Assembly: GCF_004296575.1 (NCBI RefSeq)
Contig: NZ_SAYT01000007.1
Span: forward strand, 62,001 to 126,000
Length of the DNA: 64,000 bases
Origin: Dyella amyloliquefaciens
GTDB lineage: Bacteria; Pseudomonadota; Gammaproteobacteria; Xanthomonadales; Rhodanobacteraceae
Direction: 5' to 3'
Position 1 is the first letter of the stretch; each line of letters opens with the position of its first letter. Below the pieces are notes generated by a model. That model was given only the letters and a program-made list of their open reading frames with translations. It was not told the DNA's origin and did not search any database. Positions 1,278-60,206 of the stretch are shown here, piece after piece. Both the position numbers and the translations under genes were made by a program.

Positions 1278-2305
1278 GCAGGAAGCGTATGAGCTATCGG
1301 CAACACCGAGGCTGTGGCGTATCCGCACGCGGCTTCACCCTGGTCGAGCTGATGATAGCGATGCTGCTCGGCCTGATCGTGATCGGCGGCGTCATAAGCG
1401 TCTTCCTCGCCGGCCAGCAGACGTATCGCGCCAACGAGGCATTGGGCGATGTGGAGGACGGTTCACGTACCGCCTTTGAAATGCTGACGCGTGATCTGCG
1501 CGACGTAGGCTTCACCGGTTGCGACAACACCAGCGGTCGCGTTGCGAATGTAATCAACACCAATACCACGCTTTGGTATGCCAACTGGGCGGTACCGTTG
1601 CAGGGCTACGACGACGCGAGCACCGATCCCGCTCTGTCTTCCCTCACTGGTGCCGGCGCTCCGCTGGTGGGCAGCAGCTCAGTGCGCATCCTCGGTACCG
1701 TCAGCTCGGACGTGTCCGTAGGCAGCGCATCCGGTAGCCCCACGAGTTTCAACATCAATGCGACGAGCACCCAGCTGGCTGCCGGCGACATCATCATGGT
1801 GTGTGACTTCGACCATGCCACGCTGATGCAGATCGGTACATACAGCGGCACGTCCGTCGGATTCACCAACGCCACCACGCCCACGCCCGGCAATTGCTCC
1901 ACGGGACTGGGCTATCCGACCATCTGCACCAGCACGGGCAACGCATACACCTTCCTGCCCAACGCTCGCATCAACATCCTGACCGCGGTCGACTGGTACA
2001 TCGGCACCAATGCGGCGGGCACGCACTCGTTGTACCGGTTGCCTGTGACTTACAGCGCAGCGGGCGCCTCGGTGGCGACACCTCAGGAGATGGTGCGCAA
2101 CGTCGACACCATGCAGATCAACTATCTGCAGTCGTCGGGGGCGACTTTTGGGAACGCTGCGGCCGTGGGTGCCAACTGGGGGGCGGTCAATGCCGCGCAG
2201 GTCACGCTTACCGTGAAGAGCACGAATGCACATGCCAGCGTCAACGCAGAGCCTCTCGCGCGGACCTTCACTTCCACCACCACCATGCGCAACCGGGTGC
2301 AATGA
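1274..2305 (+). CDS. pilW: Type IV pilus minor pilin PilW
   Basis: PilW-family minor pilin of 343 residues. The leader ends at Gly20 and processed residues FTLVELMIAMLLG carry Glu+5 (Glu25). The stretch just after the helix (QQTYRANEALGDVEDGSR, then a CDN-containing segment) is characteristic of PilW, which is longer than other minor pilins. Start codon overlaps the pilV stop, so translation is probably coupled. Function inferred from family: incorporation into, and priming of, the pilus together with PilV, PilX and PilY1. Confidence 0.9.
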   Translation: MSRKRMSYRQHRGCGVSARGFTLVELMIAMLLGLIVIGGVISVFLAGQQTYRANEALGDVEDGSRTAFEMLTRDLRDVGFTGCDNTSGRVANVINTNTTLWYANWAVPLQGYDDASTDPALSSLTGAGAPLVGSSSVRILGTVSSDVSVGSASGSPTSFNINATSTQLAAGDIIMVCDFDHATLMQIGTYSGTSVGFTNATTPTPGNCSTGLGYPTICTSTGNAYTFLPNARINILTAVDWYIGTNAAGTHSLYRLPVTYSAAGASVATPQEMVRNVDTMQINYLQSSGATFGNAAAVGANWGAVNAAQVTLTVKSTNAHASVNAEPLARTFTSTTTMRNRVQ

Positions 2306-2306
2306 G

Positions 2307-2906
2307 ATGACCGCGACGAATGTTTTCCATCGCGCCCAGCGGGTATCGTCCGGCGCCAGCGCGCAGCGTGGTGTTGCGCTGGTGGTGGCACTGATCCTGC
2401 TGGTGTTGATTACCCTGGTGGGATTGGCCGCGGTGCACGGCACCATCATGCAGCAGAAAATGACGGCCAATCAGTATGATCGTGAACAGGCGTTCCAGAG
2501 CGCCGAGGCCGCGGTGCGCGTGGCGTCCGCCATGATCCCGACTACGCCGAACCTCAGTTGGCACAATTGTCAGGCCGGTGGCATCACCTGTCTGCCCAAT
2601 CCGTTCAACGACCCGACGCTCACAACCGACGCTATTCATTCGGTGGCGCAAGGGACCGGGGCAGGCCAGTACACCGCCAGCGCGACGGCAGCCGGCCAGC
2701 CGCAGTTCGTGGTGGAGAACATGGGCAACTGGGTGGACCAGACCACCAATACCGGCTTTGGCCAGACCGGCAACTCGCGCAACTACGGCGTGCAGGGCAG
2801 CTCAGGTACGGCTGTGTTCTACCGCATCACCGCGCGTAGCGGCGACCCCGCCCTCGTGGGCGATCGCGCCGTGGTGGTCGTGCAGGCCATCGTCAAGCAA
2901 GGCTGA
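2307..2906 (+). CDS. pilX: Type IV pilus assembly protein PilX
   Basis: PilX-family minor pilin. The ATG at 2307 lies one base after the pilW stop and gives 199 residues; a longer in-frame reading from 2226 would overlap pilW and is unlikely. The N-terminus has the PilX pattern RGVALVVALILLVLITLVG: a basic residue, Gly, and a hydrophobic helix without Glu at +5, as in other PilX proteins. The product is expected to act with PilY1 at the pilus tip. The next gene starts 65 bases downstream. Confidence 0.88.
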   Translation: MTATNVFHRAQRVSSGASAQRGVALVVALILLVLITLVGLAAVHGTIMQQKMTANQYDREQAFQSAEAAVRVASAMIPTTPNLSWHNCQAGGITCLPNPFNDPTLTTDAIHSVAQGTGAGQYTASATAAGQPQFVVENMGNWVDQTTNTGFGQTGNSRNYGVQGSSGTAVFYRITARSGDPALVGDRAVVVVQAIVKQG

Positions 2907-2971
2907 TCCATTACCGCGCTCGCCGCCATGGTCGACGAGCGACAAACCGATCGAATCCAGGACACTCCTCG

Positions 2972-5900
2972 ATGAACACGAAGCCGCACGCACTGCGCCG
3001 CAGGAGCTCCGCCGCCATCAGGGCGATGGGCACCATGTTGGTCGTATGGATGCTGGGTTCCCTCTACACGCCTGCCGTGGCCGCAACGACCACGGTGACC
3101 GTGGATCAGCAACCGCTGACCGTGCAGCCGATGATTCCTCCGAACGTCGTGCTGATGCTCGATGACTCGGGATCGATGTCCGCCGACTACATGCCAGACC
3201 TGTCGTATCTGAACAACAACACGAACAACGATGCGCTCATCGATTCGAGCAACAACGGTCTCTACTACAACCCGACGGTGATCTATACGCCGCCGCCTTT
3301 GGTGAGTGGCGTAACCAATACCACGTACACCGATATGACCGCAGTGCCGCATGATGGCCTTGCTGCCACGCTCGTCAACGTCAATCTGTTTACATACAAC
3401 GGCTCATACGAATGCAGCGATACGCAAAGTTGCGGTACCGGTAAGGGTTCAATCGCGTTCAATACCTCGACCCAGCACGCTGTTCTTACCGGTGGAACGA
3501 CAAACTATAGCCAGACGGTGACTTCCTCGGGCTCTGGAGGTAGCACCATCTATGCTGATGCGGTGTGCCAGAACACTGCGAATACGTATACGGGCGTCAC
3601 CAATTATCAGTTCACGGGGACTACGAAAAATTCCGGCGGTAAATGGACGAAGGGTACCTGCACCTTTACTTACCAGAACACTACCCAGAAGACGGTCAAT
3701 TACTTCCAGTATTCAACCGGCCCCGCCGCTGGAACCTACACGGATTATTACGTCGCGCTAAATACCGGCGACTGCGCATATGCGCCGACACCGGCCAACT
3801 GCGTGTTGGTTGGTGACACAACCGGCGCTGCGGCGCCCGCCAAGGATGCATCTGGCAATCAGCTGACCGCCGGCCAGAACATTGCCAACTGGTTTGCCTA
3901 TTACCACACGCGCATCCTGATGGCGAAGAGCGGCCTGATGACCGTTTTTGCCTCGGTGGATCCGTCGTTTCGCGTGGGGTTCGGATCGATCAATGGCAGC
4001 GGAGCGAGCTGGATCAGTAGCAACATCAATAGTAACAAGTACTCGTTTTCCACTACGACGAATTCGAGCAACTATCTTGCTCAGGTATCGCCGTTTGGTG
4101 ATGGCAAGACGGGCGTCCAAAGGGCAAATTTCTGGAATTGGATCAGCCAGTTGAGCCCTGGCAACAGTACGCCGCTGCGCATGGCGCTGGCCGCTGTCGG
4201 CAGCTATTACAAAACGAGCCAGCCATGGTCGACGTTGTCGAGCGATCCCACTTACGGGACGGCCAATGCATCGACGAATATTGCTTGCCGTCAGTCCTAC
4301 ACGATCATGACCACGGACGGTTTCTGGAACGAGAGTTACAGTTCCACCACGATAGCCGGAGCCACTAATGCTGCGTGGGCAAGCGTCCCGGGACCCAACG
4401 GTCAGTCGTGGCCGACCCCGGCGGGAAGCAAGCCAGGCGTACCATTTGCCGGCGGCACCACGGGGACCACCGGAAACCCGTCGCTTGCCGACGTGGCCCT
4501 GTACTACTGGGAAAACGATTTGGCCGATGGCAAAGGCTCCGATCCCAACATCGCCAACGAAGTGCCGACCAGCAAGGATGACCCTGCGTTCTGGCAGCAC
4601 ATGGTCACGTTCACCATGGGCTTGGGCTTTACCCCGACGGGAATTTCCGGCACGGCATCGAATGGCGATTCGCCGCCAACCACCGACGATATTTTCAATG
4701 CGGTGAGCGGCAAGACGACGCTCAGCAATTTCAGCTGGCCGGTGCCCAGCGGAAGCAACAATGGCTCTATCAACAATATCGCTGACTTGGAGCACGCGGG
4801 CGTGAACGGTCACGGTGGCTTCTTTTCCGCGACCAGTCCGCAGACGTTTGTCAGTGGTCTGACCAATGCCTTGAACCGTGCATCGTCTCGCGTGGGTAGC
4901 GGCGCCAGCCTGGCGGCCAATTCCACCCAGCTCACCAATGGTACGGTGGCTTACCAGGCGCAATATCACACGGTGGAGTGGACCGGTGAACTGATGGCCC
5001 TGCCGATCAACTCGAGCACGGGAGCCATCAGCACGACGGCCAATTGGTCGGCGACGACGCAGTTGCTGAAGAGCGCCACGGTGACGGGTTCTGTGATCAC
5101 GTATCCGAGTCGGAAGATCTGGACCTACGTGCCACCGGCCTCGCCCACCAGCAGCGGCACTTTCGTGAGTTTCGCCAACAGCAGCTCTACCTCGCCCCCG
5201 TCCCTGTCCACCGCCGAACTGAATGCGCTGGGCAGCACGGCGACCGCGCAGGCGACGATGGTGAACTATCTGCGCGGCGATAACACCTCAGAACAGGGGA
5301 ATAGCGGCACGCTTCGTACCCGTACAACCCCGCTCGGGGACATCGTGGATTCGCAGCCGGTGTATTCCGGCGCACCCAACCCCAATGAGTTCGAGAACCA
5401 GCTGTTTACCGGTATGAGCAATACCGCGTCGACCGGTGACAACTCGTTCCAGGCCTTTTCGGTCGGCACCACCACGGCTGGCGTTACCACGCCCAGCGTC
5501 GCCTCCACCCGTGCGGGCTTGGTGTTCGTGGCGGCCAATGACGGCATGCTGCATGCGTTCGATGCCAGCACGGGTAATGAGGTTTACGCCTACTTGCCGG
5601 GTGCAGTCATCACGGCCGGAAACGTGATGCAGCTGTCGAATACCAGCTACGGTTCAACCACGAGCAGCACCGCGCCACACCAGTACTACAACGACGGTGA
5701 GCTGACCATCGCCGATGCGTTCTTCGGCTCTGCCTGGCACACGGTGCTGGTGGGCACGACGGGCCGCGGCTTGGCCAAGGCCGTGTATGCGTTGGATATC
5801 ACTGACCCCACCAAGATCACCCCGCTGTGGGAGCGTTCCGCAGGCGATGGTCTGCCCAACAGCAACTACATCGGCCAGATGGTGGGCAAGCCGGTGATCG

Positions 5901-17812: not shown

Positions 17813-17876
17813 GATCGCGCACTGGGTGCGCTCCTACAACAAGGCTTCGCTGTAGGAGCGCACCCAGTGCGCGATC
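17813..17876. repeat. GTAG-type palindromes, inverted pair (copies 2 and 3)
   Basis: Two units in head-to-head inversion, 17813-17838 and 17851-17876, with 26-base perfectly complementary arms and a 12-base loop. Each unit is GTAGGA plus the hairpin GCGCAC / CCA / GTGCGC. The pair fills the 86-base gap between two converging genes and would form a very stable hairpin in either transcript. Confidence 0.88.
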
Positions 17877-37718: not shown

Positions 37719-37799
37719 GTAGGAGCGCACCCAGTGCGCGACCGCAGAGTCACGGTTTTGCCGCTTCGTAGGCTTTTCGCGCACTGGGTGCGCTCCTAC
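37719..37799. repeat. GTAG-type palindromes, inverted pair (copies 5 and 6)
   Basis: Units at 37719-37741 (plus) and 37777-37799 (minus), inverted, with 35 bases between. Both carry GTAGGA and the hairpin GCGCAC / CCA / GTGCGC. The pair sits between the converging nadD and msrB stops and marks the left edge of the block that separates nadD from rsfS. Confidence 0.87.
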
Positions 37800-37813: not shown

Positions 37814-38434
37814 TCACGACGTTCGCGGTACGAACCTCAACGCCACCGAGTTCATGCAGTAACGCAACCCGGTCGGTGGCGGCCCATCATCGAAAACGTG
37901 CCCGATATGACTGTCGCAACCTGCGCAGCTCACGGCCGTGCGTTCCCAGCCAAAGCTGCTGTCCCGCTTTTCGATGACGTTCTTCCTGGCGATCGGCTGC
38001 CAGAAGCTTGGCCACCCCGTGCCGGAATCGAACTGCGTGGCGGCGTCGAACAATGCCGTGTCGCATGCCGGGCATCGATAAAGGCCGGGCACTGGCGGCT
38101 TCTCGTGCTGGCCGCTGAAGGCGCGTTCGGTGCCTTCGCGACGCATGACGTAGTACGCGTCATCGGACAAGCGCTGATGCCACTGCGCATCGTTGAGAAC
38201 CAGCTTGCGCACGTGGCAGGGGCCCAGGTGATGTCCATCGTCGGCGAAGCACTCGAGCATCAGGTCTTCGCCCTGTGCCACGGGAGTCGCGGCCATGGCA
38301 TCTCCCGACGCTGCCCCGCGGCGGAGGAAATCAGGCAGCAGCCATGCTCCCGTCACGGCGATGGCGCCGCCGGTGAGTGCCGCACGCAGGAAGCGGCGGC
38401 GTTCCAGCATCACGATGTCTTTGGTGCGGGACAT
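37814..38434 (-). CDS. msrB: Tat-exported peptide-methionine (R)-S-oxide reductase MsrB
   Basis: MsrB reduces the R form of methionine sulfoxide in proteins. The 206-residue product has a twin-arginine signal (LERRRFLRAALTGG, 10-23), so it should act in the periplasm. Zinc cysteines are Cys121, Cys124, Cys170 and Cys173; the catalytic Cys193 is in RYCMNS. The ATG at 38434 has GGAGG five bases upstream; a GTG 15 bases earlier is less apt. The start lies 28 bases after the dipZ stop in the same orientation, so DipZ is the likely electron donor. A SigF-type promoter precedes dipZ. Confidence 0.93.
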   Translation of the reverse strand: MSRTKDIVMLERRRFLRAALTGGAIAVTGAWLLPDFLRRGAASGDAMAATPVAQGEDLMLECFADDGHHLGPCHVRKLVLNDAQWHQRLSDDAYYVMRREGTERAFSGQHEKPPVPGLYRCPACDTALFDAATQFDSGTGWPSFWQPIARKNVIEKRDSSFGWERTAVSCAGCDSHIGHVFDDGPPPTGLRYCMNSVALRFVPRTS

Positions 38435-38462
38435 GGTGGCCTCCACCACGCGAAGACGCGTA

Positions 38463-40184
38463 TCAGCCGAACGTAAAGGCGTAAGCCTGCACGCCGGGAT
38501 CGAGGAAGGTGATTTCGAAGGTGCGCTCGCCCGTGCCGGCCGCCTGGCGCACCAGTTGGTACAGGCGTTGCGATGTCACCGTGCCGTTGCCCTCGGCATC
38601 GGTGTCCATGCCGTGATCGGCGGACGGCGCCTTGCCGTCGATGGTCACGCGGAAGCGCACCGGCTTGCCGTCGGACGAGGGGCCAAGCACCAGGTGCAGA
38701 TCGCGCCCGCGGAAGCGATAGACGATGCGTCCATTGGCTTGGTCCAGTCGAGCGCTTTCCTCTCGCACGGTCCAGTGGCCATCCAATGCCCATTGATTGG
38801 CCATCAATGTAGACGGCACGCGGTAGTTCCACGCATCGTCATGCGCGACCTGGCCACCCGCAAAATTCTCGGCGCGTGCATAACCGACGTAGGTTTCCGG
38901 CGAGCGCTGCGCGTCGCCTGAACTCGCCGCTTCCGCACCCTGTGCCCCGGGCTGCACGTAGCCGCCGGGCAGGTTCTTCTGGCCGGCTTCGGTAAGCAGC
39001 TGACGGATCACGTCCTCGCTCTGGTCGTACTCGCCCTCACCAAAATGGTGATGGCGGATATGCCCCTGGGCGTCGATGAAGTAGTGCGCTGGCCAGTATT
39101 CGTTGTTGAAGCCTTTCCAGATCGAGTACTCGTTATCGAGCGCCACGGGGTAATCGACGCCGAGATCCTTCACCGCCTTGATGACGTTCTGCGGCTCCTT
39201 CTCGAACGCGAACTCCGGTGCGTGCACGCCGATGACGACCAGGCCATGGTCCTTGTACTTGTCGGCCCAGCCGCGCACGTAGGGCAGCGAGCGGATGCAG
39301 TTGATGCAGGAGTAGGTCCAGAAATCGACCAACACCACCTTTCCGCGCAGCGACTGGGCGCTAAGTGGTGCGCTGTTGAGCCATTGCGTCGCGCCCGCCA
39401 GCGAAGGCAACTCGCCCTCGATCGGCAGCGGATCGCCCGCCTTCACCGCAGGCTGTGGTGCTGGTGCGGGGCGCACGGCATCGATCAGCTTCTGTTCGAT
39501 ACTGCTGGTGCTGGCGAGCGACACACGCGTCAGCAGGCCGGTGTCCATGCCCAGTGCAATCGCGGCCACGCCTGCAAGCACCAGTACACCGAGCATGCGG
39601 CGCACCCATTCGCCCGCGCCCAACGAGCGCTTCATCAGAGAGAACACGCGACCACCCACGACAAGTGCCAGCGCGAGAGAGGTGGCCGCGCCTGCCGCAT
39701 AGGTGAGCAGCAGCAAGGTGGTCTGCACGCTGGCGCCATTGAGCGCCGCGCCCGTGAGCAGCAGACCGAGGATGGGGCCGGCGCACGGTGCCCACAGGAG
39801 ACCGGTAGCCACACCCAGGCCCGCCGCCGACCACACGGAGTCGCCTTCGGTATCCGAGCGCTGGGTCAGCTTGTTGCCCAGTGCCACGAACGGCCGGCTG
39901 ATCCACTCGGCGAGATGGCTCGACAGCAGGGTGAGCCCCAGCACCGCGAGCACGATCATGGCGACGATGCGGCCATATTGATTGGCGCGGATGGCCCAGC
40001 CACCACCGATCGCCGCCAGCGTCGCCACGAGTGCGAAGGTGAGCGCCATGCCGAGCAGCATCGGCAGGCCATTGCGCATGAAAGGACGGTCGGCGCGCGC
40101 AAACACAAAGGGCAGCACCGGCAGGATGCACGGGCTGAGTATGGTCAGCACGCCGCCGAGGTAGGCCAGGATCAGCACGAGCAT
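38463..40184 (-). CDS. dipZ: DipZ-type thiol-disulfide transporter (CcdA plus thioredoxin-like domain)
   Basis: Membrane protein of 573 residues that carries reducing power from cytoplasmic thioredoxin to the periplasm. The N-terminal CcdA/DsbD-type domain (1-215) has its redox cysteines Cys19 (SPCILPVLPF) and Cys134 (WAPCAGPILG). The central periplasmic thioredoxin/TlpA-like domain (about 250-400) has the active site SCINC (Cys293, Cys296). A C-terminal beta domain (about 430-573) is typical of DipZ proteins. It is transcribed with msrB, diverges from sigF, and is preceded by a SigF-type promoter (40243-40218). Confidence 0.92.
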   Translation of the reverse strand: MLVLILAYLGGVLTILSPCILPVLPFVFARADRPFMRNGLPMLLGMALTFALVATLAAIGGGWAIRANQYGRIVAMIVLAVLGLTLLSSHLAEWISRPFVALGNKLTQRSDTEGDSVWSAAGLGVATGLLWAPCAGPILGLLLTGAALNGASVQTTLLLLTYAAGAATSLALALVVGGRVFSLMKRSLGAGEWVRRMLGVLVLAGVAAIALGMDTGLLTRVSLASTSSIEQKLIDAVRPAPAPQPAVKAGDPLPIEGELPSLAGATQWLNSAPLSAQSLRGKVVLVDFWTYSCINCIRSLPYVRGWADKYKDHGLVVIGVHAPEFAFEKEPQNVIKAVKDLGVDYPVALDNEYSIWKGFNNEYWPAHYFIDAQGHIRHHHFGEGEYDQSEDVIRQLLTEAGQKNLPGGYVQPGAQGAEAASSGDAQRSPETYVGYARAENFAGGQVAHDDAWNYRVPSTLMANQWALDGHWTVREESARLDQANGRIVYRFRGRDLHLVLGPSSDGKPVRFRVTIDGKAPSADHGMDTDAEGNGTVTSQRLYQLVRQAAGTGERTFEITFLDPGVQAYAFTFG

Positions 40185-40217
40185 GTGGGCAGCATCCTTC
40201 AGAGAGTCTTATACGTA

Positions 40218-40243
40218 TTCGCCGGGTGTGGCCTTCCGGTTAC
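40218..40243 (-). promoter_or_regulatory. SigF-type promoter of dipZ-msrB
   Basis: On the minus strand GTAACC at 40243-40238, 16 bases, then CGAA at 40221-40218. Predicted transcription start about 27 bases before the dipZ ATG. It matches the GTAACC-N16-CGAA consensus known for Caulobacter SigF, and the same pattern precedes sigF and the gene at 41833. Confidence 0.78.
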
Positions 40244-40382
40244 CGCGATTCTTCTCGGGGCAGGAAGGGGCGGCGACCTGCTCGAAGCATCCTCCTGGCC
40301 GACGCCGCTGTCATTCCCGTGCGGGGCGAAGAGCCTGCCAGGCACGTGACCTGGATCCGGGCAAAGCCGGCATCTGCGCGAA

Positions 40383-40408
40383 GTAACGCGGCCCGCCGCG
40401 ACGTCGAA
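40383..40408 (+). promoter_or_regulatory. SigF-type promoter of sigF-nrsF (autoregulatory)
   Basis: GTAACG at 40383-40388, 16 bases, CGAA at 40405-40408, 28 bases before the sigF ATG. It differs from the dipZ site only at the last base of the -35 element. Self-activation of the sigma operon is the usual arrangement for this group. Confidence 0.75.
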
Positions 40409-40436
40409 TAAACAGAAGGCCCACTGACACCACTCC

Positions 40437-41096
40437 ATGACCCCTGCCTTGACCGCCACCCGTCCGATGGTTCTAGATAGCGTCCTTCCCCCATGGGCCA
40501 GGGCCGACTTTGCCGTGAGTGACGCCGCCGACAGCGCCATCGATTCGCCGGAACGGCGGCGGGCGGCATGGATGGCGGCGGCGCAAGCCGGTGACCGGCA
40601 GGCCTATGAGCGTGTGCTGGCCGACTCGGTGCCCCTGATTCGCGCCGCGGCCCGGCGCCAGGGTGTGGACGTGGACCTGCAGGACGATGTGGTGCAGGAG
40701 ACCCTGCTTACCGTGCATCGCGTGCGCCACACCTACGATCCGGGCCGCTCGTACGATGCGTGGCTGTCCGCCATCGCTGCGCGGCGTGCCATCGATGCAT
40801 TGCGCAGCCAGGGACGACGCGGGCATCGTGAGCTGCACGACGAGCGTGCCTACGACATGCATCCCGACGAGCACGACGCCACGGCGGCCACCGAGCGCGA
40901 GCAGGAAGCACATCGCCTGCACGAAGCCATTGCCTCGTTGCCACCGGGGCAGCGCGAAGCCGTCGAGCAGCTTGGTCTCAAGGAGCGCTCGCTGGCCGAG
41001 GCATCCGCACACACCGGTCGCCAGACGGGTGCGCTGAAAGTAAATCTGCACCGCGCGATGAAGGCGCTGCGTGCCCGTTTCCATGGAGAACCCTGA
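40437..41096 (+). CDS. sigF: ECF sigma factor of the SigF/NrsF type
   Basis: Extracytoplasmic-function sigma factor of 219 residues. Region 2 is around AAQAGDRQAYERVLADSV to DLQDDVVQETLLTVHRVRHTY, and region 4 is at LPPGQREAVEQLGLKERSLAEASAHTG. The N-terminal 35 residues are an extra extension; an internal ATG at 40467 is possible. The next gene, six bases downstream, is a DUF1109/NrsF anti-sigma, which places the factor in the ECF group of Caulobacter SigF. That factor responds to chromate, cadmium or oxidant stress, and the Azospira homolog responds to reactive chlorine. Matching promoters lie in front of this gene, dipZ-msrB and the gene at 41833. Confidence 0.88.
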   Translation: MTPALTATRPMVLDSVLPPWARADFAVSDAADSAIDSPERRRAAWMAAAQAGDRQAYERVLADSVPLIRAAARRQGVDVDLQDDVVQETLLTVHRVRHTYDPGRSYDAWLSAIAARRAIDALRSQGRRGHRELHDERAYDMHPDEHDATAATEREQEAHRLHEAIASLPPGQREAVEQLGLKERSLAEASAHTGRQTGALKVNLHRAMKALRARFHGEP

Positions 41097-41101
41097 GCAT
41101 C

Positions 41102-41761
41102 ATGTCCGAGTCGCGACTCCCCGAGTCACTGATCCAGTCGCTGGGCGTGCAGCTGACCCCGGTGCGGCGCCTGCCGCCGCCCTGGCTGCGCACGGTCAGC
41201 TGGCTGTTGGTGGTGGCGGTGATCGCACTGGGGTTGCTGTGGCACTACGGCGCCGAGCACATGATCCGCCGCTGGATCGCCGAGCCGGATATCGCCGTGG
41301 CGGGCGTCGGCGCAATCATCACCGCTGTATCCGCCGCCTGGGTGGCGTTCACGCTCGGCGTACCCGGGCGCTCCGCCTGGTGGGCGTGGCTGCCGGTGCC
41401 CGGTCTGCTGCTATGGGTAGGAGCCAGTGGATTGGGTTGTCTGCGTGGTGTCGTCATCCCGGGAGCGCAGGTGGCCACCGCGCATCAGTCCGGCGACTGT
41501 CTGGTGTTCATCATCAGCATCTCGATACCGTTGTCAGCGTTGCTGGTATGGCTGTTGCGTCGCGCTTGCCCGCTGCGCCCCGTGTTGACGGCGATCATGA
41601 TCGGCCTTGCCAGTGCGGCGGCTTCTGCTGCGCTGCTGGAGATCTGCCACGGCTTCGCCGTCGCCGTCACTGACCTGATCACGCACGCGATCGCCGTGGG
41701 GATTGTGGTGTTGGCCAATGCGCTGATGGGCGGCCGCCTGCTGCAGCCTGCATTGAAGTAA
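41102..41761 (+). CDS. nrsF: NrsF/DUF1109 family membrane anti-sigma factor
   Basis: Inner-membrane protein of 219 residues with about six membrane helices and a short cytoplasmic N-terminus (MSESRLPESLIQSLGVQLTPVRRLPPPWLRT). This is the layout of NrsF, the negative regulator of SigF. Helix pairs begin near residues 32, 60, 90, 135, 155 and 190. Conserved cysteines in helices are thought to sense metals or oxidants in Caulobacter NrsF; Cys residues here are in LGCLRGV, GDCLVF, RRACPL and LEICHGF. The stop codon overlaps the next SigF-type promoter. Confidence 0.87.
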   Translation: MSESRLPESLIQSLGVQLTPVRRLPPPWLRTVSWLLVVAVIALGLLWHYGAEHMIRRWIAEPDIAVAGVGAIITAVSAAWVAFTLGVPGRSAWWAWLPVPGLLLWVGASGLGCLRGVVIPGAQVATAHQSGDCLVFIISISIPLSALLVWLLRRACPLRPVLTAIMIGLASAAASAALLEICHGFAVAVTDLITHAIAVGIVVLANALMGGRLLQPALK

Positions 41762-41783
41762 CTCTCCTCTTCGTCGCAACGAA
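41758..41783 (+). promoter_or_regulatory. SigF-type promoter of the Met/Lys-repeat protein gene
   Basis: GTAACT at 41758-41763 (overlapping the nrsF stop), 16 bases, CGAA at 41780-41783; the gene starts 49 bases downstream with AGGAG in between. It is the third site in this block with the pattern GTAACN, 16 bases, CGAA. Confidence 0.72.
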
Positions 41784-41832
41784 GGAAGACATGCGGCATG
41801 TACCGCATCGTCCATCTTTCAGGAGAGTTCCC

Positions 41833-42108
41833 ATGAAGACTGTCATTTCGCTGGTTCTTGCAGCGTCGTTTGCCTGCGCGTCCGTCGCCTTCGCACAGGA
41901 TGCGATGCAGCCGGCGAGCGCCGGTTCCGCCATGAAGCAGGACGCGATGAAGAGCAGCGACACGATGATGAAGAAAGATGCTTCAGGCATGAAACACGAC
42001 AGCATGAAGAAGCATGACGCGAAGAAGGGTGATGCGATGCAGCACGGAGACGCGATGAAAAAGGATGCCGGCAGCACCGATGGCGGTGCCATGTCCGGTG
42101 GTCAGTGA
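41833..42108 (+). CDS. Exported pentapeptide MXKDX-type repeat protein, Met-rich
   Basis: Small secreted protein (91 residues) with a signal peptide cut at about AFA-QD (21/22). The mature part, about 70 residues, is a low-complexity run of DAMK/DAMQ/DSMKK units with ten methionines, many lysines and aspartates, some histidines and no cysteine. It matches the family annotated as pentapeptide MXKDX repeat proteins. Upstream sit AGGAG and a SigF-type promoter, so it is a likely SigF target. By analogy with the Met-rich MrpX peptide of Azospira, it could be an oxidant or metal sink whose methionine sulfoxides are repaired by the neighbouring MsrB. Metal binding is an alternative. Confidence 0.8.
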   Translation: MKTVISLVLAASFACASVAFAQDAMQPASAGSAMKQDAMKSSDTMMKKDASGMKHDSMKKHDAKKGDAMQHGDAMKKDAGSTDGGAMSGGQ

Positions 42109-42481
42109 TACGGGCCGTATGCCGCAAGAAAACGCGATTTCGCGGACGGCGTGAGCACCGCAGCAAACCGTCCTGAGTGCTTGTGGCCTGTCGATATTGA
42201 CGCTGAACAGAGATGTCGACAGGTCGCATTTCCGTGTCGTGCATGGGTATACCCTAAGCCCGTTCCGGGCGTATGCGACACGGGGGCGAGCCCGGTGGAC
42301 ATGGTTTCACGAACCAGGGACGGGGCGTTCGCATCGGGCAGGACCGCTGATGTGGCGTGGCCGGGATCGACGCAAGCCGGTGCCGGATCGTCGGAGTCGC
42401 TAGGGAAGAGCGACACCGGCAGTTCCATGGAAGTGCGGCGCGGCCGCACGGTTACTTCACCGCTCTCGGAGATACGTACCC
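42109..42481. other. 373-base gap with no recognisable gene
   Basis: Between the two repeat-protein genes. No reading frame here has a supported start or family resemblance. It contains the palindrome GGGTATACCC (42245-42254) and small GC-rich dyads, but neither the SigF pattern in the right orientation nor a clear sigma-70 promoter for the gene at 42482. Confidence 0.7.
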
Positions 42482-42763
42482 ATGAAAGTTTCCCGTTACG
42501 CCATCCTCGCCCTTGCCACTGCCGTCGCCCTCGGATTCGCCGTGTCGCCAGTCATGGCTCAGCAGAGCACGCCGACGCAGTCCGCACAGGACGCCAGCAA
42601 GGACGCGATGAAATCCAGCTCGGATGCCATGAAGTCCGGCTCGGACGACATGAAGTCCGCCAATGATTCGATGAAGAGCGACACCAAGAGCAGCTCGCAT
42701 CACAACAAGAAGCAGCACAAGAAGGGCAGCGAGCCTGCTTCTTCGTCGACCGCCGGTCACTGA
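42482..42763 (+). CDS. Second exported Lys/Met/Ser repeat protein
   Basis: Paralog-like small secreted protein (93 residues) with a signal peptide cut near VMA-QQ (26/27). The mature part has KDAMKSSSDAMKSGSDDMK units with four methionines, then a Lys/His/Ser-rich tail (SSSHHNKKQHKKGS). It is poorer in Met and richer in Ser and His than the upstream protein, so metal binding may matter more here. No SigF-type promoter is seen just upstream. A strong terminator follows. Confidence 0.78.
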   Translation: MKVSRYAILALATAVALGFAVSPVMAQQSTPTQSAQDASKDAMKSSSDAMKSGSDDMKSANDSMKSDTKSSSHHNKKQHKKGSEPASSSTAGH

Positions 42764-42783
42764 TACCACGCCTGACGGGCAAG

Positions 42784-42816
42784 CAAGGCTCCCCATGTGG
42801 GAGCCTTGTCTTTTTT
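42784..42816 (+). terminator. Rho-independent terminator
   Basis: Perfect 10-base stem CAAGGCTCCC / GGGAGCCTTG with a five-base loop, followed by TCTTTTTT. It closes the sigF-side transcription unit after the second repeat-protein gene. Confidence 0.93.
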
Positions 42817-60125: not shown

Positions 60126-60206
60126 GTAGGAGCGCACCCAGTGCGCGAAAAGCCTACAGTGCGGTGATCTCGCAGCGCCGCGATCGCGCACTGGGTGCGC
60201 TCCTAC
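60126..60206. repeat. GTAG-type palindromes, inverted pair (copies 7 and 8)
   Basis: Units at 60126-60148 (plus) and 60184-60206 (minus) with 35 bases between, the same spacing as the pair at 37719-37799. A run of seven T precedes the first unit. They fill the gap between the converging acetyltransferase and DoxX-like genes. Confidence 0.87.

Follow-up and report, generated by a model that had tools for sequence, protein, structure and literature searches.

In Azospira suillum, as Melnyk is said to have described in 2015, the sigma factor SigF and its anti-sigma factor NrsF control a cycle formed by a periplasmic, methionine (Met)-rich peptide, MrpX, and the methionine sulfoxide (MetO) reductase YedYZ. 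The locus analyzed here, positions 37814-42816 of a 64-kb stretch of Dyella amyloliquefaciens DNA (the window, which spans positions 62001-126000 of its contig, NZ_SAYT01000007.1, in a genome of 4.83 Mb), has SigF/NrsF control in common with that system, as well as an exported Met-rich peptide under a SigF-type promoter. The two differ in the reductase, which in A. suillum depends on molybdenum and draws its electrons from the respiratory chain, whereas here the candidates are the thiol enzymes MsrA and MsrB together with the membrane protein DipZ. Our analysis indicates that the locus is probably the regulatory center of an envelope-oxidation regulon of the SigF/NrsF, or ECF16, type (ECF, extracytoplasmic function), with a thiol relay and an optional sink provided by a protein of the MXKDX repeat family.

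Other described systems share parts of this arrangement. The available passages on EcfF/OsrA of Bradyrhizobium japonicum (PMC3420878) describe an ECF16 sigma factor with a DUF1109 anti-sigma factor, GTAAC-type promoters and three MetO reductases, one of which (Blr7043) is predicted to be periplasmic, in addition to a DsbD-like protein (Bll1027) and a membrane-anchored thioredoxin (Bll1026), from which the authors speculated in 2012 that Blr7043 receives its electrons. In contrast to the Dyella locus, in which the two are joined in DipZ, the DsbD-like protein and the thioredoxin are separate, the published motif is GTAAC(g,a)-N14-15-(c,t)CG(t,a) and not one with CGAA, and no Met-rich sink is mentioned in the passages seen. 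A first-pass annotation of the window, made from the sequence alone, gave no credit to this proposal of a periplasmic Msr fed by a DsbD-like protein and thioredoxin. In the accessible sections on Brucella BcrS/AbcS-BcrXQP (PMC8315932), an ECF16 pair likewise occurs with an MXKDX repeat protein and a TGTAAC...CGAA promoter, and both induction by and resistance to hypochlorous acid (HOCl) were shown, but the reductase is MsrQP where MsrA/MsrB-DipZ are found here. In the perchlorate islands of P. militaris and D. hydrogenophilus, msrA and msrB are predicted to be exported and the island stress genes include sigF/nrsF, yedYZ and mrpX, but msrA/msrB are described as additional to the sigF/nrsF-yedYZ-mrpX set; the word DsbD is absent from the available text of that paper, in which DipZ was not searched for (PMC4623255). 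Finally, excerpts on Haemophilus influenzae (PMC7907618) report that the ECF sigma factor RpoE2 responds to HOCl and controls a periplasmic thiol enzyme, MsrAB, but there the anti-sigma factor is an unlike, cytoplasmic protein of 67 amino acids, MsrA and MsrB are fused, and the term 'methionine-rich' is absent from the paper as available.

Published work, then, already places under ECF16 sigma factors Msr genes, the MXKDX/MrpX peptides of Brucella and Azospira and, in Bradyrhizobium, a periplasmic Msr for which a DsbD/thioredoxin donor was speculated. New features appear to be the coupling to DipZ, the use of thiol enzymes apparently in the place of MsrP, and an MsrB that is exported and in which an N-terminal pair seems to have taken over the part of the resolving cysteine (Cys). 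The open PMC literature yielded no paper describing such a system, including any on DipZ or Dyella with methionine sulfoxide (reductase).

Organization of the locus and its promoters

On the forward strand, sigF (40437-41096) encodes an ECF sigma factor with Sigma70_r2 and r4_2 domains, and nrsF (41102-41761) a multi-pass membrane anti-sigma factor that matches PF06532 (DUF1109/NrsF) at 65.6 bits against a cut-off of 26.8 and that is 90-91% identical to its nearest named matches, which come from Dyella sp. EPa41 and D. jiangningensis SBZ 3-12. Divergent from this pair, on the reverse strand, dipZ (38463-40184) lies upstream of msrB (37814-38449), with a gap of 13 nucleotides (nt) between them. 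The domain scan of DipZ gave the order DsbD_TM, Redoxin/AhpC-TSA and Thioredoxin_10, that is, a CcdA/DsbD-type membrane domain followed by a thioredoxin-like domain (CINC) and a C-terminal Thioredoxin_10 domain. MsrB is a peptide-methionine (R)-S-oxide reductase (SelR 150.5 bits, TIGR00357 160 bits) with an export signal of the twin-arginine translocation (Tat) type, and its start codon is either GTG at 38449 or ATG at 38434. Behind nrsF, on the forward strand, a gene at 41833-42108 encodes an exported Met-rich protein of the pentapeptide MXKDX repeat family (TIGR02953, penta_MxKDx; 51.1 bits against a cut-off of 41), with 10 Met in about 72 mature residues. The first-pass annotation had recognized an ECF sigma/DUF1109 anti-sigma pair, a divergent dipZ-msrB and a small exported protein with ten Met in about 70 residues, and the family scans and residue count bear it out on these points.

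In the window the pattern GTAACN-N15/16-CGAA matches exactly three times, ahead of dipZ, of sigF and of the gene for the Met-rich protein, where 0.28 matches would be expected, and three or more matches were reached in none of 100 shuffles. The site of dipZ-msrB (40218-40243, reverse strand; GTAACC-N16-CGAA) ends 33 nt from the start codon, that of sigF-nrsF (40383-40408, forward strand) 28 nt and that of the Met-rich gene (41758-41783, forward strand, overlapping the nrsF stop codon) 49 nt, so that all three of the common-pattern promoters proposed at first pass are in place. With one mismatch allowed, the window holds 11 matches against 5.8 expected. Genome-wide, the pattern has 28 matches and its reversed control 61; because it is not enriched, the case for these promoters rests on position and conservation and not on count. 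The promoter before the sigma gene, tGTAACc-N16-CGAA, matches the ECF16 consensus as printed in the available part of PMC3420878, and together with the PF06532 anti-sigma factor it suggests that sigF-nrsF is an ECF16-type pair. NrsF matched no NCBIfam family at E 0.01, and we call it divergent because the AntiSigF_NrsF equivalog (NF042994) was not among its matches.

Conservation of the promoter set

The taxonomic family was sampled with 197 genomes, of which 92 have NrsF, close in 90 and distant in two (G006 and G152). Ninety-one NrsF stretches were compared (G180 was left out, its NrsF being split over two contigs), and the loci with NrsF at least 50% identical, that of the window included, make up a set of 89 family loci. 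Within the compared stretches sigF is present in all 89, in each case upstream of nrsF, dipZ in 80 and msrB in 84. Each of the 86 loci that contain dipZ or msrB has the motif ahead of dipZ or, if that gene is lacking, ahead of msrB (86 of 86). Ahead of sigF it was found in 88 of 89, the single exception being cut by a contig end. In relatives with dipZ and sigF about 1-2.5 kb apart, each gene has kept a separate motif. For comparison, random 300-nt windows of the family loci contain the motif in 4% (true promoters included) and the reversed pattern in about 1%. Behind nrsF the motif occurs in 24 of the 89 loci, and a Met-rich open reading frame (ORF), starting 42-87 nt past the motif start, was recognized beside it in 20, a count that is a lower bound since only +560 to +900 was scanned. 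This conservation supports the earlier proposal of one SigF/NrsF regulon with dipZ-msrB and the Met-rich gene, as far as promoters in relatives can indicate it. The Met-rich gene does have its promoter, but to describe the regulon as built around Met-rich repeat proteins was an overstatement, given how few loci have one behind nrsF.

Both msrA genes of the genome also carry the motif upstream. One of them (G000:C10:512222-512923) encodes a lipoprotein, its lipobox having been read by eye, and was traced in 42 chosen genomes, 32 with NrsF and 10 without. The motif was present upstream in all 32 genomes with NrsF and in none of eight without it; of these eight MsrA proteins, three share about 63% identity with the query and five just 46-55%, and two more genomes, with a weaker paralogue, were left out. 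Since this MsrA has the same promoter, the genome is equipped for both sulfoxide isomers; this contradicts the R-isomer-specific cycle of the first-pass annotation, and a cycle limited to the R isomer was rejected. The exported Msr enzymes and a transmembrane thiol donor (dipZ-msrB and lipoprotein msrA) are thus placed under SigF-type promoters here, as judged from the conservation of those promoters. DsbD is a variable member, with the motif in 8 of 30 genomes with NrsF, own genome included. The cytosolic MsrA was rejected as a core member, as the motif accompanies it in the Dyella genome and in just two of six relatives (G064 and G188); loci L252-L255, which hold a different MsrA type and stand outside this count, include two with a site about 280 nt upstream. 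In the genome-wide motif scan, the two other MsrB genes had no match nearby.

SigF-type motifs were also seen elsewhere in the genome, upstream of an exported peroxiredoxin-like gene (L001 1590-2420), of a small membrane protein without a Pfam family (L003 929-1420) and, with a spacer one base shorter, of a catalase-family gene (L014 1561-2634). We do not assign these three genes to the regulon.

Thiol enzymes as a probable replacement of MsrP

No MsrP was found in the Dyella genome, where the best score was 40.6 bits (47 bits on the protein) against a cut-off of 207. Its sole protein with the Oxidored_molyb domain (PF00174) is SorA-like (597.5 bits, cut-off 600) and adjoins a SorB-like cytochrome (67.6 bits, cut-off 93), and a YedY elsewhere in the genome was rejected on this basis. 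Among the 197 family genomes MsrP is above cut-off in 43. None of these is one of the 90 genomes with a close NrsF; all 43 belong to the remaining 107 (Fisher 4e-14), and one of them, G006, holds a distant NrsF. The first-pass annotation had suggested a thiol reductase in place of YedY and a search for relatives that have the locus and lack yedYZ; the search gave this mutual exclusion of MsrP and the locus in the family sample, which is consistent with such a replacement.

Outside the family, six of 40 NrsF neighborhoods have a Met-rich or MXKDX gene. In four of the six (L293, L294, L306 and L326) it is accompanied by a YedY-like protein (25-31% to MsrP) and in L299 by msrB-dipZ-msrA; L309 has neither, and none has both. 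Dropped before counting were L304, L310, L311 and L314 (antisense or unrelated ORFs) as well as L292 and L325, whose small Cys-containing proteins of the MEKCYGVA type resemble DUF2282 bufferins. L299, from another family of the same class, contains the whole module in one place, with a motif followed by msrB-dipZ-msrA and a motif followed by an MXKDX gene, divergent from sigF-nrsF.

The cysteines of the two window enzymes were compared in the family alignments. In DipZ, Cys19, Cys134 and both CINC cysteines are invariant (80/80); the nearest solved chains to residues 256-505 are those of Protein DipZ (5cyy and 2hyx), and the periplasmic part also matches, weakly and at E about 2e-5, the thioredoxin domain of MsrA/MsrB proteins. 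MsrB has the twin-arginine motif RRRFLRA (read by eye), and a scripted scan of the 83 family MsrBs picked up a Tat-like motif in 82. The catalytic Cys is kept in 82 of 82 aligned sequences and the zinc cysteines in 83 of 83. At the proximal resolving position, however, all 83 have Thr (SGTGWPSF in the window). Past the Tat signal, a pair of cysteines (spaced CX10C in the window protein) is complete in 59 of the 83, absent from 23 and reduced to a single Cys in one. In those 59 the resolving function probably sits on the N-terminal pair, as in human MsrB3, which according to the available part of PMC7475093 has no proximal Cys and passes oxidizing equivalents to the surface through an N-terminal CX5C pair. 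The likeness to MsrB3 extends to export, the missing proximal resolving Cys and a pair just past the signal peptide; the differences are the spacing (CX5C there, CX10C here) and the compartment, which is the endoplasmic reticulum there and the periplasm here. By this analogy, a shuttle from the MsrB pair to DipZ may operate. We also considered whether the MsrB pair goes together with a membrane cysteine of DipZ, but the correlation was only loose and the idea was rejected.

The MXKDX protein

The Met-rich protein of the window has no Cys, Trp or Tyr, and contains one HXXM, one MXXH and two MXH motifs. In 39 distinct MXKDX proteins of the family, Met makes up 9-22% (17% on average) and His 0-12%; Cys is absent, there are one Trp and one Tyr in total, and several of the proteins have 5-9 HXXM motifs each. 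Such a composition suits the role of a Met sink more than that of a metal site based on His.

TIGR02953 is above cut-off in 26 of the 197 family genomes (matches at E 0.001 in 43), and in several of them the gene is located away from nrsF. Among 29 loci with MXKDX-family genes, own locus excluded, the exact motif lies upstream in 23 of 27 from genomes with NrsF and in neither of two from genomes without it; one of the 23 (L191) encodes a protein of the DAMKSSS type discussed below. In a phylum-wide sample of 397 genomes, NrsF was found in 83 at E 1e-10 and MXKDX above cut-off in 39, and NrsF is present in 26 of these 39 compared with 57 of the 358 others (Fisher 6e-11, kinship ignored). The exact CGAA pattern was found at 8 of 22 phylum MXKDX loci with NrsF and 0 of 7 without (own included). 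After this result, and guided by the EcfF consensus (PMC3420878), a wider ECF16-type pattern (GTAAC-N14..18-CG[AT]N) was adopted; it occurs 44-134 nt upstream of the MXKDX gene in 18 of 21 genomes with NrsF and none of eight without, against a chance rate of about 4% per window. These 29 are the best MXKDX loci, own excluded, and one of the eight without NrsF (L357) was wrongly picked. In genomes of genus g145 (6-9 Mb) in this sample, MXKDX genes have a GTAAC...CGTC site.

A second repeat gene (42482-42763, forward strand) encodes an exported DAMKSSS-repeat protein to which the scans gave no family name and which is absent from the TIGR02953 matches of the family scan. It has no SigF-type promoter upstream (the best site has three mismatches), and it was rejected as a regulon member for Dyella. 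Among the compared loci, a single relative (G019) has the exact motif before a gene of this kind. DAMKSSS-repeat genes lie behind nrsF in many Dyella relatives (L065, L070-L080, L286-L291), where they are likewise without a SigF-type promoter. In another relative (L233, G188:C95), positions 1981-3118 hold a motif-bearing MXKDX gene followed by cytochrome b561; the end of that contig has a weak YedY-like match (49.3 bits), and as the genome is listed as 4% contaminated it may be foreign.

Proposed mechanism and alternatives

We propose that an oxidant or a thiol-reactive metal would alter NrsF and so free SigF, as its orthologues suggest. SigF would transcribe its own operon, dipZ-msrB, the unlinked lipoprotein msrA and, where present, the MXKDX gene, all of which are linked by conserved promoters. 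Judging from domains and gene order, DipZ could then move electrons of cytoplasmic thioredoxin through the membrane and onto its own CXXC domain on the periplasmic side; that domain would re-reduce MsrB and probably MsrA too. The specificity of their families implies that exported MsrA and MsrB would jointly repair both sulfoxide isomers of envelope proteins, and by analogy with MrpX/BcrX the MXKDX protein may be an optional, renewable Met sink for the same cycle. The thiol enzymes would, in this lineage, replace molybdenum MsrPQ. We put forward more tentatively, at somewhat less than an even chance, that a conserved ECF16 regulon has undergone a wholesale swap of electron source, from molybdenum/quinol MsrPQ to a thiol relay of cytoplasmic thioredoxin, DipZ, exported MsrA and an MsrB whose N-terminal shuttle disulfide would resemble that of human MsrB3, with MXKDX kept as an interchangeable substrate or sink; were this true, MXKDX would be a phylum-wide ECF16 effector family that serves either reductase.

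Sensing in the first step may involve the cysteines of NrsF. Cys113 and Cys133 are invariant in the 89 family proteins, and Cys182 matches by position the OsrA cysteine reported as necessary for hydrogen peroxide (H2O2) signaling. In a phylum-wide alignment, the first conserved Cys (about 129-131) is present in 41 of 41 sequences and the second column (about 179-181) is Cys in 31 of 41, with Cys182 of the window one column off the latter.

It is important to note that a number of observations weigh against parts of this model. Cys182 is found in 78 of the 89 family NrsF proteins and is Phe, Ile or Val in the other 11. The inducer cannot be assumed, because orthologues have been reported, in the parts of the sources available, not to respond to reactive-oxygen agents in Caulobacter, where chromium and cadmium induce the SigF genes (PMC3511200), and to show no rise of RpoE7 and its target with H2O2, cadmium or chromate in S. 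meliloti (PMC6180224). Six loci of two genera have msrB and no dipZ, so DipZ cannot be the sole electron donor, and DsbD could also feed the Msr enzymes. The 23 MsrBs without the N-terminal Cys pair, 20 of which come from dipZ-bearing loci, need another route for that reason. The split between MsrP and NrsF follows genera and may therefore reflect few events; genus g24 has both kinds in different genomes, the one with MsrP being 89% complete. Beyond the family, 31 of the 40 NrsF neighborhoods are without MsrA, MsrB, MsrP-like, DipZ-like or MXKDX genes nearby. As for the sink, MXKDX is absent beside most family nrsF loci, and the four motif-less MXKDX genes from genomes with NrsF are all from one genus, although one of them (L184) has an internal stop and a poorly delimited ORF.

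Three alternatives were weighed. It is somewhat unlikely, in our estimation, that this is purely a repair regulon, in which MsrA, MsrB and DipZ maintain ordinary envelope proteins and MXKDX is no sink and has another, acid-shock or structural, role. The near-constancy of dipZ-msrB and msrA in the family regulon, beside a patchy MXKDX, would suit it, as would a weak match of the window protein to the acid-shock protein Asr (31.5 bits, cut-off 50). However, MXKDX retains an ECF16-type promoter in cis, in trans and phylum-wide with NrsF, and not in the few genomes without NrsF that were examined, and Met is nearly its only easily oxidized residue. In addition, bcrXQP of Brucella, the first gene of which encodes an MXKDX protein, aids HOCl resistance, with the limit that the triple deletion does not separate the parts (PMC8315932, in the sections available).

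A metal-stress regulon, with MXKDX as a copper or silver buffer through Met/His sites, Msr and thiol enzymes handling copper damage to Cys and Met, and oxidant scavenging secondary, is unlikely, but copper buffering by MXKDX stays a live rival. In the accessible parts of PMC8224329, copper induces SigF of Caulobacter together with its regulon, which comprises DUF2282/DUF692 operons and MsrPQ, and a sigF mutant is copper-sensitive, in line with the chromium and cadmium induction cited above, and available text of PMC12452194 places sigma and NrsF genes within Buf1 bufferin clusters. The HXXM-rich members of the MXKDX family would also agree with metal binding. Against this stand the composition of the 39 family proteins and the few such motifs of the window protein, the fact that the near-constant part of the family regulon consists of MetO reductases, and the response of the Bradyrhizobium and Brucella systems to H2O2 and HOCl (PMC3420878, PMC8315932). 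That SigF controls only itself, the other promoters being chance matches in a cluster of unrelated redox neighbors, is very improbable, since despite the lack of genome-wide enrichment the motif is conserved at fixed places (86/86, 88/89 and 32/32 in relatives, 0/8 without NrsF) and is kept separately by dipZ and sigF when these lie apart.

The regulon model is the reading we prefer. With it, what began as a conjecture on a single locus becomes a regulon that can be tested, because its members are named and certain absences are predicted. MXKDX, a common and unexplained family of small proteins, gains a likely regulatory context and so a likely function. Within one lineage, exported MsrA/MsrB-DipZ and MsrPQ seem to be alternative modules, and both electron sources for envelope Met repair could then be compared in close relatives. 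A candidate shuttle disulfide could, moreover, be studied outside the endoplasmic reticulum in the bacterial MsrB.

Repeats in the window

A near-perfect palindromic repeat (GTAGGAGCGCACCCAGTGCGCGAC...) was seen at five places in the window (37719-37799, 17814-17875, 60126-60206, 32513 and 9887), with eight half-sites against 0 expected. The copy at 37719-37799 lies behind msrB and has a folding z of -7.8, and a similar repeat, seen by eye, follows the lipoprotein msrA gene. The repeat looks like a REP-type (repetitive extragenic palindromic) element and could double as a terminator.

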